DNA from: Spirochaetales bacterium
GTDB lineage: Bacteria; Spirochaetota; Leptospiria; Leptospirales; Leptonemataceae
Direction of reading: 5' to 3'
DNA length: 64,000 nucleotides
NCBI GenBank assembly: GCA_015075425.1
Contig: JABTUL010000001.1
Location: 1,054,001-1,118,000, forward strand
The notes under the pieces: generated by a model
What the model was told of the DNA's origin: nothing
Database searches by the model: none
The model's input: only the letters and a program-made list of their open reading frames with translations
Shown here: one piece after another, positions 51,800-63,447 of the stretch
Layout: every line of letters starts with the position of its first letter
How positions within the stretch are numbered: the first letter of the stretch is position 1
Position numbers and translations under genes: made by a program

Positions 51800-51818
51800 A
51801 CCCCCCAGTTCTGGGGGT
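51800..51818. promoter_or_regulatory. Inverted repeat before the response-regulator gene, putative operator
   Basis: ACCCCCCAGTTCTGGGGGT contains the perfect arms CCCCCAG-TT-CTGGGGG. It lies 66 bases before the regulator start and directly after a TTGACA hexamer at 51792-51797, though no clear -10 follows at normal spacing. Almost the same sequence stands before the gene at 54614. Binding by the neighbouring LuxR-type regulator is inferred from the shared position. Confidence 0.55.
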
Positions 51819-51883
51819 GCGCTGGACCGAACAACGCTTGTTTCTTACAGGGGGGCAGTACTTTTTGGCCGGGGAAAAAATGG

Positions 51884-52501
51884 ATGTTCATCGGACTTGT
51901 TGAAAACGATCAGGAATACCGGCAGACGGTCAAGCAGCAATTGGAGCAAATCTCAATGGTCAGCCGGGTCCAGGAATGGCATTCTGCGGAAGAATTTCTG
52001 CGTGATTCGGAACGCAGCAAGCTGGACCTTGTTTTCCTGGATATCATGCTCCCGTTAATGAGCGGCGTGGATCTGGCGCGGGAAATTGCCAACAAGCAAC
52101 CGGATTTAAAAATCATCATGCTTTCCAGCATGAATTCAGATGGTCTTATTTTTGAATCCATTAAGAATGGCGCGCTGGGCTATGTGCTCAAGTCGGAACT
52201 GGAGGATTTGCAGTCTATCATTGAAACCGTGCAGAGGGGTGGGGCCATAATCACGCCCACCATCGCTCTGCGCGTATTTTCCAGTTTCAGAAGATTGCCG
52301 CAGAACGCTCCCGATCTAACTGAAAGAGAACGTCAGGTGCTGGAGCTCATGGTCCGCGGCAAAACGGTGGTCGCTGTAGCTGAATTTCTGGATCTATCGG
52401 CTCATACGGTGCAGGGCTATGTAAAGGCGATGTATAAAAAGCTCAATGTTCACAATCGCGCAGGTCTGGCGCTCAAAGCCAGGGAACTCAGGCTCATGTG
52501 A
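51884..52501 (+). CDS. LuxR/NarL-type response regulator
   Basis: A 205-residue two-component regulator: receiver domain (acidic pair in IGLVENDQ, phospho-acceptor Asp53 in VFLDIMLP, switch Ser in MLSSMNS, Lys in YVLKSE) and a C-terminal GerE helix-turn-helix (LTERERQVLELMVRGKT ... LDLSAHTVQGYVKAMYKKLNV). GGGGA precedes the ATG at 51884; the longer reading from 51761 runs through the palindrome-containing leader and is unlikely. The membrane kinase gene follows almost directly. A matching inverted repeat lies before this gene and before the envelope gene at 54614, suggesting autoregulation plus control of that gene. Confidence 0.9.
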   Translation: MFIGLVENDQEYRQTVKQQLEQISMVSRVQEWHSAEEFLRDSERSKLDLVFLDIMLPLMSGVDLAREIANKQPDLKIIMLSSMNSDGLIFESIKNGALGYVLKSELEDLQSIIETVQRGGAIITPTIALRVFSSFRRLPQNAPDLTERERQVLELMVRGKTVVAVAEFLDLSAHTVQGYVKAMYKKLNVHNRAGLALKARELRLM

Positions 52502-52581
52502 TTGCCCGGAAGACGGGGGAGGCGCAGGGCCCCAGGCCAGTGGGTAATTCCATCTTGAAATGCTGTGATTCTACATTATCC

Positions 52582-54516
52582 ATGGCAAAAAATCAGCATA
52601 TTTTCTTTCTGTCTCGAAAAATGCGCTTGGCGGCAATATTTCTGCTCTGCTGTGGTGTTCTGGCCTGCAAGGACCTGGATGGAAACAGGATTCACACTGG
52701 CTGGCTGGATTTGGCTGGCGTAGATCTTTCCCGGCAACGGACAAATCTGAACGGTCCCTGGGAGTTTTACTGGAAGCGCTTTCTAACTTCTGACGATTGG
52801 AAAGCTCCAGCAGCACCGGTGCCGGATCTGGTGTTTCATGGATTGGAAGTCTGGACCGGTAATTCTGTGAAGAACCAGAGGCTGGGGGCCGAGGGCTATG
52901 GCACCTATCGTTTGCGCGTTAAGTTGCCTGAAGACACGGGTAGACTGGGTCTGCGGGTTTCTCAGCAATTTACCAGCTATCGCTTATTTGTCAATAATCG
53001 GCAGGTTGCTGCTAATGGCCAGCCAGGGAAAACAAAAGAAGAAACTATAAATAATCGCGTTGATCAATATGTGTACTTTACCCCGGAAAGTACAGAACTG
53101 GAAATCATCTTTCATGTAGCCAATTACTATACCTTTCGCGGCGGTATGCGCGGCCATGTACAGTTGGGGCAGGCCGATCTTATTCAGAAGACCAGGCTGC
53201 GCTTCATTGCTATTGATTTGCTTTTGATGGGATTTGTCCTGGCAATATTCTTGTACCATGTTCTTATATATTTGCGTGTGCGCTCAGATAAATCATCTAT
53301 ATATTTTATATTATTGTGCTTTAGTTTCTTGATAAGAATGCAATTTTTTGATGAAAAGCCTTTGATTTTATTTCTGGAGATTCCTTTTGATGTAACCATT
53401 CGCATCATGCATGGCATCAATGTAATTTCTCCGTTGTTGATTATGCTTTTCACCGGATCATTATTCCCCGGCTCAGTGCATCGGTGGGCCATCCAGCTCT
53501 ATATTGCGTCGATTCCTTTTTACTTCCTGACATATATTTTTGGCCCCACTGTGTTTACCCTGGCAATGTACATCTATTTGTTTACCGTAGTTTCACCATC
53601 TGCGATCTATATGACCGTTATCGTTAGCAAAGTAGCGCTACGCCGCTATCCCGGATCTCTGTGGATGGCTGCAGGCATCTTTAGTTCTTCCGCGCTACTC
53701 ATTTACACGCTTATCGCCGGTTGGCAGGGACTGCAATCCGGTATCTATGCCATCTTTGGCTTTGCCCTGCTGGTATTCTTTCAATCCATTGCGGCCAGTC
53801 AGGTTTATACCGATCGGATGCTGGCCAGTCAACGTTTGCTGGCGAAATTGCGCCAATCCGAAGCTGCCCTGGCGCACCAGCGCAAGGAATTAGAAATCAA
53901 TCTACACGATTCGTTAGGTGGCAACCTGACAGATTTAAAGATTCTTTTAAGCCGCCTGGGGCAGCAAGTCGGAAATGCAGGGGCGGGCATCCCGGATAGC
54001 GGCCTTTTAACGAGGCTACAGGAAAAAGTGCAGGCGACCATGCAAAATTTCAGGGCCCAGCTTCTTTTCATGGAAGACTTTGAGCTGGCTTCTGAGGAAA
54101 TTTTGACCGGTCTGCAAATGAATCTTTTACGGCGCTATTCAGACGCGGGTCGCGAGGTTGAATTTGCTGTGGCCCCGGAGCTTGATTCCATGCGTGATTC
54201 CTTAAACAGCCGAATTGACCCGGAAGCCAGATTGAATCTGTTTTTGCTGGTCCAGGAAATTTGCACGAATGATCTGAAATATGGCAGAGGAGAATCGCAA
54301 TGGTCTATCTCTGCTCTTCCCGGCGGCGTGGCCCTCAGCCAGAGTAACCAGATCCAGGAGGATATTGATGTGGAGCCCGGGCTAATTGTGCGCCGGGAGC
54401 TAGAAGCCGGGCAGCGCATCAGGGACCGGGTTCGCCTGATGGGCGGGTCCTGCCGGGCTTTCCAGGAGGGGAAAGTGATGAGTATAAATATCCAGCTGGC
54501 CGGGCTGTTTGCATAG
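52582..54516 (+). CDS. 7TM-type histidine kinase (HisKA_3) with degenerate ATP site
   Basis: About 644 residues. After a signal-like N-terminus (lipobox-like VLAC) comes an outer beta-sandwich (WEFYWKRFL, YGTYRLRVKLP, FTSYRLFVNN), seven predicted membrane helices (residues ~225-425), a coiled coil, and a HisKA_3 dimer helix with phospho-acceptor His442 in NLHDSLGGNLTDL. The ATPase part has an N-box-like EICTNDLKYG but lacks the DxGxG and GxGL loops (SQSNQIQEDI and AGQRIRDR stand there), so ATP binding is doubtful. The start is uncertain: GTG 52498 is coupled to the regulator stop, ATG 52582 and 52621 are alternatives. The middle of the gene (53,200-53,600) is clearly AT-richer than its neighbours. 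Confidence 0.78.
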   Translation: MAKNQHIFFLSRKMRLAAIFLLCCGVLACKDLDGNRIHTGWLDLAGVDLSRQRTNLNGPWEFYWKRFLTSDDWKAPAAPVPDLVFHGLEVWTGNSVKNQRLGAEGYGTYRLRVKLPEDTGRLGLRVSQQFTSYRLFVNNRQVAANGQPGKTKEETINNRVDQYVYFTPESTELEIIFHVANYYTFRGGMRGHVQLGQADLIQKTRLRFIAIDLLLMGFVLAIFLYHVLIYLRVRSDKSSIYFILLCFSFLIRMQFFDEKPLILFLEIPFDVTIRIMHGINVISPLLIMLFTGSLFPGSVHRWAIQLYIASIPFYFLTYIFGPTVFTLAMYIYLFTVVSPSAIYMTVIVSKVALRRYPGSLWMAAGIFSSSALLIYTLIAGWQGLQSGIYAIFGFALLVFFQSIAASQVYTDRMLASQRLLAKLRQSEAALAHQRKELEINLHDSLGGNLTDLKILLSRLGQQVGNAGAGIPDSGLLTRLQEKVQATMQNFRAQLLFMEDFELASEEILTGLQMNLLRRYSDAGREVEFAVAPELDSMRDSLNSRIDPEARLNLFLLVQEICTNDLKYGRGESQWSISALPGGVALSQSNQIQEDIDVEPGLIVRRELEAGQRIRDRVRLMGGSCRAFQEGKVMSINIQLAGLFA

Positions 54517-54548
54517 AGCGCTGATTTCTGGCAGCGCTGCTTCTACAA

Positions 54549-54567
54549 ACCCCCAGTTTTAGGGGGT
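54549..54567. promoter_or_regulatory. Second CCCCCAG inverted repeat, before the envelope gene
   Basis: ACCCCCAGTTTTAGGGGGT: arms of CCCCC(A) and (A)GGGGG flank a short T-rich centre. It agrees with the repeat at 51800 at most positions and sits at nearly the same distance (47-65 bases) before the next gene. TTGACT follows at 54586. It could also form an RNA hairpin, but only four T residues lie inside it and none after it, so it is a poor terminator. Confidence 0.55.
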
Positions 54568-54613
54568 CTCTAGAAATGAAACAACTTGACTTTGCAATAA
54601 GGAAAAGTCGTTT

Positions 54614-55594
54614 TTGATTGTGCCGTTTTCGCAACTGAAATGGAGATTTTCTGTTTTTTTTATGATCCTGTCTTTAGAAGGACTGGCTTCTGAAGAAATT
54701 CTGCTGGTAAATGGCACCACAATCTCCGGGCGCATCTTAAGTCAGGATCCAGGAAGTGTAAAAGTCAGTAGTGCAAGCGGAGTGCAGACCCTGGCCAAGT
54801 CACAAATTTCCCGTATCCAGTATGTGAAATTCACCGAAGCGCAGAAGCAGACCCAGCGCGCCGCTTACATCCAGGCAGTTGCCGCATACCGGGAACGCAT
54901 CCAGAGACTGCGCCAGGCACAGATGGAAGCCGCAGAACAACGCCGGAAAATTCAAGAAGCCGAAGCCGCTATTCAGGAGGAGAAACAAAAAGAAGCGCGC
55001 GAGGTGGCTGACCGGGCTGCAGCCTTGCGCGATCTCAAAGAAGAAGGTAAGTTCGAGAATCGTATTGGCGAACCCATTTCCTACTGGGACTTTGCCTGGC
55101 ATTCTCTTCTCCTGCCAGGCTGGGGGCATTTTTATATCGGCAAGCCGGTCGTCGGTTCCCTGTATGCACTGAGCGTGGCCGGACTTGCCGGAAACACCTA
55201 CGAGCGCCGACGCGTTGCCCTGAGAGCTGTGAATGAGAACCATCACCAGGTAGAACGGAATTTCTTGCTTTCGCTCCAGCCTGATCTGGCCGACCTCAAC
55301 ACGCGCATCTTCCTGTCTTATTATGCCAACGCCAAAGCTTTCACCCACTACCAGGGAAAAGTGAACGATTACCATAATTCGCTCTACGCTTTGCAGAGCT
55401 TTTATCTATTTCAAGTGGCGCATATCATCTACAATGGTATCGCCTGGGAAAACGGCCTTTTAATAGTTGATAAAGATACGGAACCTGCGCGCTGGCAACC
55501 CGAGTGGCAGATGGCGCTTGTGCCGGATCAGAATCCCACAACAGGACGATTCGAGGGCCAGAAGCTTAATCTTGCGCTGGGGTTTCGGTTTTAA
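54614..55594 (+). CDS. Exported coiled-coil envelope protein with DUF5683-like segment
   Basis: A 326-residue protein. The signal (LKWRFSVFFMILSLEGLA) is followed by a small beta domain (ILLVNGTTISGRILSQDPGSVKVSS), as in proteins that bind an SH3-like partner, then a charged coiled coil (residues ~75-135), and a hydrophobic DUF5683-like segment (WHSLLLPGWGHFYIGKPVVGSLYALS) that probably lies in the membrane. The end (LALGFRF) looks like an outer-membrane strand. The start is a TTG at 54614 with AAGGA 11 bases upstream, or GTG 54620. The CCCCCAG repeat before it makes it the likely target of the two-component system. Confidence 0.65.
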   Translation: MIVPFSQLKWRFSVFFMILSLEGLASEEILLVNGTTISGRILSQDPGSVKVSSASGVQTLAKSQISRIQYVKFTEAQKQTQRAAYIQAVAAYRERIQRLRQAQMEAAEQRRKIQEAEAAIQEEKQKEAREVADRAAALRDLKEEGKFENRIGEPISYWDFAWHSLLLPGWGHFYIGKPVVGSLYALSVAGLAGNTYERRRVALRAVNENHHQVERNFLLSLQPDLADLNTRIFLSYYANAKAFTHYQGKVNDYHNSLYALQSFYLFQVAHIIYNGIAWENGLLIVDKDTEPARWQPEWQMALVPDQNPTTGRFEGQKLNLALGFRF

Positions 55595-55622
55595 TATGGA
55601 CCAAATCCGGATGGAGAATTGC

Positions 55623-57155
55623 ATGCTTGATTTTCAACTTAAGACCTTCCTGAGCAAAATGTCGAGCCTATTTGTAAGGATTTTTTTTATTATTCCAGCA
55701 CTCTTTCCCTCCTGCCTGCAAATCGATCCGAGCCCTCTGGATTCATCGGAAAACCCGGTAATACTTTTTCTGCCCGTATTGCTGGAGCCATCTTTTGCAC
55801 TTGCTACAGTTTATCCCGCAGCAGATGCCACCAACGTTGCCCCCTGCGATGGATCACCCTGTCTGGGCAATATGCGCGTGCGTTTCACGCGACCCATGCG
55901 CACCGATCTCACGCATAGCCTGACCGCTGAAATATGGGATGGAACCGTGTTTGATCCAGTTGCCACAGACGGCACCAGGTTTGCATGGAGCAAAACCTTC
56001 CGGCCAAATGACACGCTCAATATCTACATCAGCTGGATCTGGTTTCCGGAAACGTCAAAAATTCGTTTTACTTTGCCCGCCTCTCAATTTCAGAGCACAG
56101 TGGGCGACAATCAGCCAGCTGATATTCAGCAAACGTTCGATACTACAGGGAACAAGCAGACCTTTCCAGTGGCGGATACCGGCATGGCCCTGTGCAGCAA
56201 TGGTGGTGTGGGCTTGGTTGCCTGTCCCGGGGGCGGCTTTCCTTCTCAGGACGGAGACTTCACCAATGTTCCCAACTCGCGCAGTTTTACGGGACCCACC
56301 GCGCATGCAACCTACTCCGCCGATTACACCACAATCGACAACCTGACGGGGCTCCGCTGGAAGTCCTGCACGGAAGGGCTTTCGGGCGCCACGTGCGCTA
56401 CTGGCGCCGCCACGGCTGTCGTCTGGGAAGATTCGGTGAATGCCTGCGCTGGTCTCAACCAGGCCAACAGCGGCGCCGGGTACTGGGGACTGAGCAATTG
56501 GAGGCTGCCCACGCGCTCGGAACTGACCTCCATCGTATCCTTTGCTGCGACCAACCCGTCCATCGACGCGGCCAACTTTCCGGCAACGGTGGGTGATACC
56601 TACTGGGCATCGGGCTCTTTTCAGAATAGCACGCGCGGATACCAGGTGCGATTCTTGAATGGCACCAGCCAGGGCGCTTCGGACAACAAGGACGGCGTTA
56701 CCACGGCGCGCGTGCGGTGTGTCTCATCGCCTGCTACAATCCAGTTGCCTGGCTTCAGCGACAACGGCGACGGAACGATTTCGGACCTCCGCACGGGCCT
56801 GCGCTGGCAAAAATGCTCGCGGGGCCAGACCAATGACAGCAGTTGCAGCGGTGCGGCCACAACGGGGAACTGGCAGTCTAACCTGACGTACTGCGATGGG
56901 CTCACCCTCGGCTCTCATGCCAATTCTTCCAGCTGGCGACTTCCCAACGTAAATGAATTCTATTCCATCACCTTCATTGGCAACACCGGCAACAATGTAG
57001 ACGTGACGTACTTTCCAAACACATCGGCGAGCCGCTACGCTACTTCGACAACGCGCCCCGCAGATGGTACGTTCGCGACGAACTTCGATGGCAGCGGCAT
57101 GGCGAACAACCCTCTCGGGACTCTATACACGGCCCGGTGCGCTTCGACGGAATAG
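55623..57155 (+). CDS. Lipoprotein with Ig-like domain and two DUF1566 (Lcl-type) domains
   Basis: A 510-residue protein; GGAG lies 7 bases before the ATG at 55623, and the signal FVRIFFIIPALFPSC has a spirochaete-like lipobox. Residues ~60-175 form an Ig-like domain (ATVYPAADATNVAP, VRFTRPM). Two DUF1566 domains follow, each with a DNLTGLRWKSC- or DLRTGLRWQKC-type start, paired Cys and WRLPT/WRLPN segment (NWRLPTRSELTSI, SWRLPNVNEFYSI). The Lcl member of this family is a collagen-binding adhesin in Legionella; here surface adhesion is inferred. It starts 28 bases after the previous gene stop and may be cotranscribed. Confidence 0.82.
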   Translation: MLDFQLKTFLSKMSSLFVRIFFIIPALFPSCLQIDPSPLDSSENPVILFLPVLLEPSFALATVYPAADATNVAPCDGSPCLGNMRVRFTRPMRTDLTHSLTAEIWDGTVFDPVATDGTRFAWSKTFRPNDTLNIYISWIWFPETSKIRFTLPASQFQSTVGDNQPADIQQTFDTTGNKQTFPVADTGMALCSNGGVGLVACPGGGFPSQDGDFTNVPNSRSFTGPTAHATYSADYTTIDNLTGLRWKSCTEGLSGATCATGAATAVVWEDSVNACAGLNQANSGAGYWGLSNWRLPTRSELTSIVSFAATNPSIDAANFPATVGDTYWASGSFQNSTRGYQVRFLNGTSQGASDNKDGVTTARVRCVSSPATIQLPGFSDNGDGTISDLRTGLRWQKCSRGQTNDSSCSGAATTGNWQSNLTYCDGLTLGSHANSSSWRLPNVNEFYSITFIGNTGNNVDVTYFPNTSASRYATSTTRPADGTFATNFDGSGMANNPLGTLYTARCASTE

Positions 57156-62756: not shown

Positions 62757-62775
62757 TCCCCTGTAAACGGGGGGT
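62757..62775. promoter_or_regulatory. Weak third match to the CCCCCAG-type repeat
   Basis: TCCCCTGTAAACGGGGGGT, whose complement reads ACCCCCCGTTTACAGGGGA, matches the repeat at 54549 at 14 of 19 positions. It ends 6 bases before the ATG of the ATPase-domain gene at 62782, so its G-run may simply be the ribosome-binding site. A regulatory link is speculative. Confidence 0.25.
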
Positions 62776-62781
62776 GCGTTC

Positions 62782-63447
62782 ATGGGGAAACAGAAGATTT
62801 CGGTACGGATACTCGACGAGTCCGCCCGCGGCGAACTGCAGACGGCTTTTGACCGGCTGGAGGCTGAGCTGGGCATCGAATGGCTGGCAGCAACCCTGAC
62901 CACAGCCATTCTTGAACTCATTGAGAACGCTGTTAAAGCCAATCTGAAACGAGTTTTTTTTCAGGTGCATGGCTATCGCCTGGATGAACCCGCTTCTTAC
63001 TCTGAAGGGATTCGTCATTTCAAACGTGAGTTTCCGAGCGTAAGCAAGGAAGACTATCGCAAATCGCTCGAAGATCTCAATCTCATGGTTTCTGTGGAAG
63101 TGGACCTGGACCAGGACCGCTTGCTGGTCTTTGTGGAAAACAATACATTGCTCCTCACCGCAGAGGAGGAAAGGATCCGGCGGCAACTGGCCCGGGCCAT
63201 GACAGCGCCGGATCTACTGGAATTCAGCGTTCAGTACGGTGATGAGACGGAAGGCAGCGGGCTGGGACTGGCCATGATCGTCTTTTTGATTCGCACCCTG
63301 GGGTTTAAGCCAGAGCTCTTTCGCATTTACAATCAGGTGGATCGGACCATGGCCCGGCTGGAATTTCCTTTGAATGCCTCGTACGTTTCTCTACGTGAGC
63401 AATACGAACGCGAGCAATCGCTCAAAGTCGGTACGCTTTCAGGATAG
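62782..63447 (+). CDS. GHKL/histidine-kinase-type ATPase-domain protein
   Basis: A 221-residue protein with only a HATPase-type domain. The N-box is AILELIENAVKAN, the G1-like loop is VFVENNTLLL, and G2 is EGSGLGLAMIVFLI, so the ATP pocket is mostly intact, unlike the kinase at 52582. There is no DHp helix or sensor. Such proteins act as anti-sigma kinases or as partners of split signalling systems; the membrane SpoIIE phosphatase at 14881 is a possible opposing partner, but far away. Its stop overlaps the convergent SGNH gene by 26 bases. Confidence 0.78.
   Translation: MGKQKISVRILDESARGELQTAFDRLEAELGIEWLAATLTTAILELIENAVKANLKRVFFQVHGYRLDEPASYSEGIRHFKREFPSVSKEDYRKSLEDLNLMVSVEVDLDQDRLLVFVENNTLLLTAEEERIRRQLARAMTAPDLLEFSVQYGDETEGSGLGLAMIVFLIRTLGFKPELFRIYNQVDRTMARLEFPLNASYVSLREQYEREQSLKVGTLSG

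Follow-up and report, generated by a model that had tools for sequence, protein, structure and literature searches.

The locus lies in the window, the 64,000-nucleotide stretch of DNA that was analysed, and consists of a response regulator gene and a sensor kinase gene with a palindrome in front of the pair and another behind it, followed by genes for a probable exported or membrane protein and a probable lipoprotein:

51800–51818, + strand: operator 1 (predicted), 5' of the regulator gene, with a 7-2-7 core CCCCCAG-TT-CTGGGGG at 51802–51817; orthologous sites occur in other genomes
51838–51843, + strand: TTGTTT, putative –35 element, with the TTG 20 nt past the core of operator 1 at a conserved position
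51884–52501, + strand: NarL/LuxR-type response regulator (receiver and GerE HTH), assigned by Pfam, orthologues and structure matches
52498–54516, + strand: 7TMR-DISM sensor with a DesK-like histidine-kinase C-terminus and no visible glycine (DxGxG) box, assigned by Pfam, alignment, structure model and Foldseek
54549–54567, + strand: operator 2 (predicted), 5' of the 54614 operon, with a 7-3-7 core CCCCCAG-TTT-TAGGGGG at 54550–54566; sites also precede homologous operons
54586–54591, + strand: TTGACT, putative –35 element; the distance to the left core edge is 36 nt, the same as at operator 1
54614–55594, + strand: probable exported or membrane protein related to a DUF5683-like protein; the start may be the GTG at 54620
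55623–57155, + strand: probable lipoprotein with two Lcl_C domains (Pfam), likely co-operonic with 54614 across a 28-nt gap

The original prediction of a two-component pair was borne out by Pfam and the structure model, which identify a receiver/GerE regulator next to a 7TMR-DISM sensor with a kinase-like C-terminus. The regulator matches Response_reg (1.3e-20) and GerE (1.5e-16) in Pfam, its nearest solved structures are LiaR/VraR, DevR and NarL, and the residues required for phosphorylation (E8/D10, D54 and K104) are present and conserved in the alignment. The sensor contains a 7TM intracellular-signalling domain (PF07695, 3.8e-10), and its C-terminus was modelled as a histidine-kinase core with DesK as the best Foldseek match, while Pfam HisKA_3 remained below the cut-off. 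In the alignment of 10 kinase orthologues, the H-box histidine and the N-box are invariant (HDxLGxxLTD and TNDLK), but by inspection no DxGxG glycine box for ATP was visible in any of them, so the ATP-binding domain may be atypical and the source of the regulator's phosphate is uncertain.

Both 19-base palindromes were found exactly at the positions and distances claimed before: ACCCCCCAGTTCTGGGGGT at 51800–51818 is separated by 65 nt from the regulator ATG at 51884, and ACCCCCAGTTTTAGGGGGT at 54549–54567 by 46 nt from the TTG start at 54614. The two sites, described as nearly identical, differ in layout: the first is a 7-2-7 palindrome, the second a 7-3-7 variant with imperfect arms. Allowing up to two mismatches, the window contains four matches to the motif compared to 2.9 expected. 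A weaker look-alike, CCCCTGTAAACGGGGGG at 62758–62774, lies 7 nt 5' of an open reading frame without Pfam family (62782–63447); it is not distinguishable from background and may be a further target or a chance occurrence.

A fixed-pattern motif scan of the 4.13-Mb genome containing the window yielded only three perfect C5N7G5 sites, all of which adjoin one of two paralogous regulator/kinase pairs. The third site, at C1:18794, is located beside the second pair (locus L035), the regulator of which is 56% identical. It is a variant particular to this paralogous pair, which shares it with a divergent cyclase-hemerythrin gene. This gene encodes a fusion of a class III cyclase with hemerythrin (L035, 3373–4686), behind the third site and divergent from the second regulator, and a similar fusion with reversed domain order is found behind a site in another genome, G022 (L258, 12675–14189). 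The concern that the motif might be frequent at random is answered by its rarity, with three sites in the whole genome. Abundance alone was nevertheless rejected as an argument, because C5N6-7G5, with only three occurrences genome-wide, is no commoner than the reversed control pattern, which is in fact the commoner of the two. As raw counts do not exceed the controls, the case stands on position and conservation.

The named relatives of the window genome are Leptospiraceae and other spirochete metagenome assemblies; no relatives were found among viral contigs. When a site was called at 9/10 or more of C5...G5 within 300 bp upstream and homologous regulators were required to have at least 48% identity, 18 of the 21 orthologous regulators were preceded by a site, in contrast to one of 17 more distant ones (Fisher p=1.3e-6), and dinucleotide shuffles predicted 0.6 sites for the same 21 regulators. 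The motif is thus present upstream of regulator orthologues, which had been proposed as a check. Two of the exceptions, in G006 and G037, have the site 5' of a cyclase gene that leads the regulator's operon, and for the third (G008b, with a regulator of 53% identity) no site was found within 300 bp upstream. Across genomes, the consensus CCCCCTGTTCAGGGGG, which has the 7-2-7 layout CCCCCTG-NN-CAGGGGG, occurred with at most one mismatch in 14/15 genomes with the regulator versus 1/26 without it (p=6e-9). The class as a whole is represented by 48 genomes. In the regulator tree, a branch with 97/93 support parts the site-bearing from the siteless regulators, and the recognition-helix signature T[VI][HQ][GD][YH]xK is found in 17/17 site-bearing and 0/5 siteless regulators. 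Regulators with a TVQ helix (window, G022 and G003a; only three cases) are associated with half-sites CCCCC[A/T][A/G], those with a TVH helix mostly with CCCCCTG or CCCCCCG.

The position of the palindrome relative to the downstream gene was examined in 51 hand-oriented site-gene pairs, 43 of which remained after removal of similar promoters. A TTG is located exactly 20 nt downstream of the palindrome in 16/51 promoters (15/43 in the non-redundant set), compared to a background mean of about 1.5–1.7 per offset and a maximum of eight in shuffled sequences; none of 1000 shuffles reached the observed count. A class-wide scan for C5N6G5-N20-TTG gave 19 matches versus five at a spacing of 14; 18 of the 19 occurred in operator-bearing genomes, and three were absent from the hand-made set. 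Both sites in the window have their TTG 36 nt after the left core edge. An in-frame start codon follows 53–58 nt past the palindrome in about 12 promoters, and start codons cluster approximately 35 nt beyond the TTG. If the TTG is part of a –35 element, transcripts would begin at or near the start codon, and the arrangement suggests class I activation at promoters that would have little or no leader. Transcripts without a leader are common in Leptospira interrogans (PMC5243855). Because no consistent –10 hexamer was found by eye in the site-bearing promoters, it is by inference that we ascribe a –35 role to the TTG, activation to the palindrome and a leaderless start to the transcripts. An A-tract is often located directly 5' of the palindrome, with an adjacent AAA in 15/43 promoters (e.g. 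L035, 4775–4794; L183, 7799–7818), and may belong to the operator or form an UP-like element.

The two genes behind operator 2 had been labelled as envelope or adhesin genes, which is backed only partly: the product of 54614 is probably exported or located in the membrane, and that of 55623 is probably an Lcl_C lipoprotein. No Pfam family was matched by the product of 54614–55594, which probably has a signal sequence and is 27% identical to a DUF5683-like protein; the lipoprotein signal of 55623–57155 is likewise probable, as read from the sequence. With only 28 nt between them, the two genes are likely co-transcribed. Orthologues of 54614 were identified in G013 (53%), G001 (49%), G015, G018, G007 and G003. 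Those of G013 and G001 lie behind the site on contigs different from that of the regulator, and in G003 two sites are located between the regulator pair and a divergent operon containing the orthologue, whereas no site is adjacent to the orthologues in G015, G018 and G007. The motif was thereby found, as expected, upstream of operons with 54614 orthologues in another three genomes, and in two of these the operon is unlinked to the regulator; a distant homologue in a fourth genome is also preceded by the motif.

A wider set of genes behind the site is seen in G022 (34% GC), a genome with six perfect sites, all of them inside 11 kb around the regulator; including one near-perfect site, the cluster comprises seven sites compared to 0.12 expected from shuffling. 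These sites precede the regulator-kinase pair, a kinase-receiver-cyclase operon, a GAF-cyclase, a hemerythrin-cyclase and a pair of DUF5683-like and DUF1554 genes. G022 also has two nearly exact copies of a promoter stretch, each containing two sites at a distance of 106 bp, in front of two different operons (L258, 1841–1962 and 5097–5218). The window genome mirrors the set of genes behind the sites in G022, with the third site between the second regulator and the cyclase-hemerythrin gene and operator 2 before the DUF5683-related and Lcl_C genes. In other genomes, sites precede 7TMR-DISM/GAF/cyclase proteins, hybrid kinases, a GGDEF-EAL protein and an FG-GAP protein. Since class III cyclases and 7TMR-DISM sensors are among the genes behind the sites of relatives, the circuit has the appearance of a signalling hub with output to cyclic-nucleotide enzymes and to exported proteins. 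A separate case are the Turneriellaceae-like genomes G032 (e.g. L234) and G046, which contain many CCCCCGC-NN-GCGGGGG palindromes, probably a lineage-specific style of terminator. The excess of C5N6G5 sites in G032 was therefore rejected as a large regulon, because most of them have this form and are likely terminators.

We consider it likely that the palindromes, predicted here to be operators, serve the NarL-type regulator encoded between them to activate its own operon and the 54614–55623 operon. In this scheme, a dimer of the phosphorylated regulator would bind the inverted heptamers CCCCC[A/T]G around a two- or three-base centre, at a constant distance of about 28 bp from the downstream TTG of the putative –35 element and thus centred near –64. 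From operator 1 it would activate the regulator-kinase operon and from operator 2 the operon for the exported protein and the Lcl_C lipoprotein. The sites themselves, their conservation at corresponding genes, their co-occurrence with the regulator and the constant promoter geometry were observed, whereas we infer that binding is direct, that it activates instead of repressing, that it depends on phosphorylation and that the transcripts are almost leaderless.

The same regulator could instead act as a repressor, with negative autoregulation and derepression of the downstream operon upon a signal. Autoregulated repressors are common, and the position of the promoter is not certain, as a consensus –10 element was not found. 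However, the fixed place of the palindrome 20 nt upstream of the TTG is outside the expected core promoter and typical of activator sites, and NarL, dimers of which bind 7-2-7 inverted heptamers, activates from the comparable position –67.5, where a single upstream site can suffice (PMC7419079), so we regard repression as unlikely. Even less probable, in our estimate, is that the palindromes are bound by a different DNA-binding protein, with the two-component genes among those under its control. Binding of the regulator to the site is a prediction, and many signalling genes far from the regulator also lie behind the site, but the site tracks the regulator clade (in the 14/15 versus 1/26 genomes given above), occurs at the regulator's own promoter in the layout expected for its family, and is found as a separate variant with each of two paralogues in one genome. 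Readings of the palindromes as terminators of transcription, as RNA hairpins or as copies of a dispersed repeat were rejected as very improbable: operator 2 is indeed located 32 nt past the kinase stop codon and the G032 palindromes look like terminators, but neither window site has a T-tract or was called by the terminator scan, there is no Rfam match, the window genome has only three perfect sites, orthologous sites stand before start codons with a TGTTCA-type core and the TTG spacing, and in G032 a TTG at +20 accompanies only the site before the regulator.

The original prediction had regarded the operator form as without precedent for this class of regulators, which does not apply to the layout: operator 1 and the consensus have the inverted 7-2-7 arrangement of NarL/FixJ regulators, with operator 2 as a 7-3-7 variant, and it is the sequence that is new. 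The NarX-NarL system of E. coli similarly combines a LuxR-type response regulator with inverted heptamers around a 2-bp centre. It differs in the heptamer, which is TACYYMT for NarL and CCCCC[T/A]G here, in the sensor, here a 7TMR-DISM protein with DesK-like C-terminus, and in the targets, here sensors, cyclases and exported proteins. DesK-DesR, VraR/LiaR and DevR (DosR), which provide the nearest solved structures for the regulator and kinase and belong to families in which autoregulation of the own genes is usual, differ from the present system in operator sequences, sensor input domain and targets, and the kinase described here has no visible glycine box, unlike those systems. HemR is an OmpR-type regulator and thus of another class than the regulator described here, and HemKR controls heme and iron metabolism. 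In the spirochete relative Leptospira biflexa, HemKR is a studied two-component system (PMC2266917, PMC11426443), and no relation of its site or genes to the present system was found. Neither the consensus motif nor a description of the system was found in the literature (open-licence papers). Accordingly, an autoregulated NarL-type two-component system is a known kind of system, whereas the operator, the promoter geometry and the regulon appear to be new.

As a more tentative proposal, which we would not yet favour, the site may define a regulon throughout the class Leptospirae, in which a single regulator clade would use a dedicated promoter type, composed of the palindrome, exactly 20 nt, the TTG and a leaderless start, for 7TM sensors, class III cyclases and exported proteins; the partner kinase would have lost the usual ATP box and might act solely as phosphatase or scaffold, and duplicated pairs would be insulated from each other by matched changes in recognition helix and half-site. 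To our knowledge, hardly any operators or regulons of two-component systems have been described in Leptospira relatives. The present analysis defines a candidate operator and a promoter geometry and supplies a list of genes for testing, conserved in at least three families. An orphan sensor is thereby connected with cyclic-nucleotide enzymes and exported proteins, and two wider questions become accessible to tests, namely how sites are kept separate between paralogous regulators and how a kinase functions in which no glycine box is visible.
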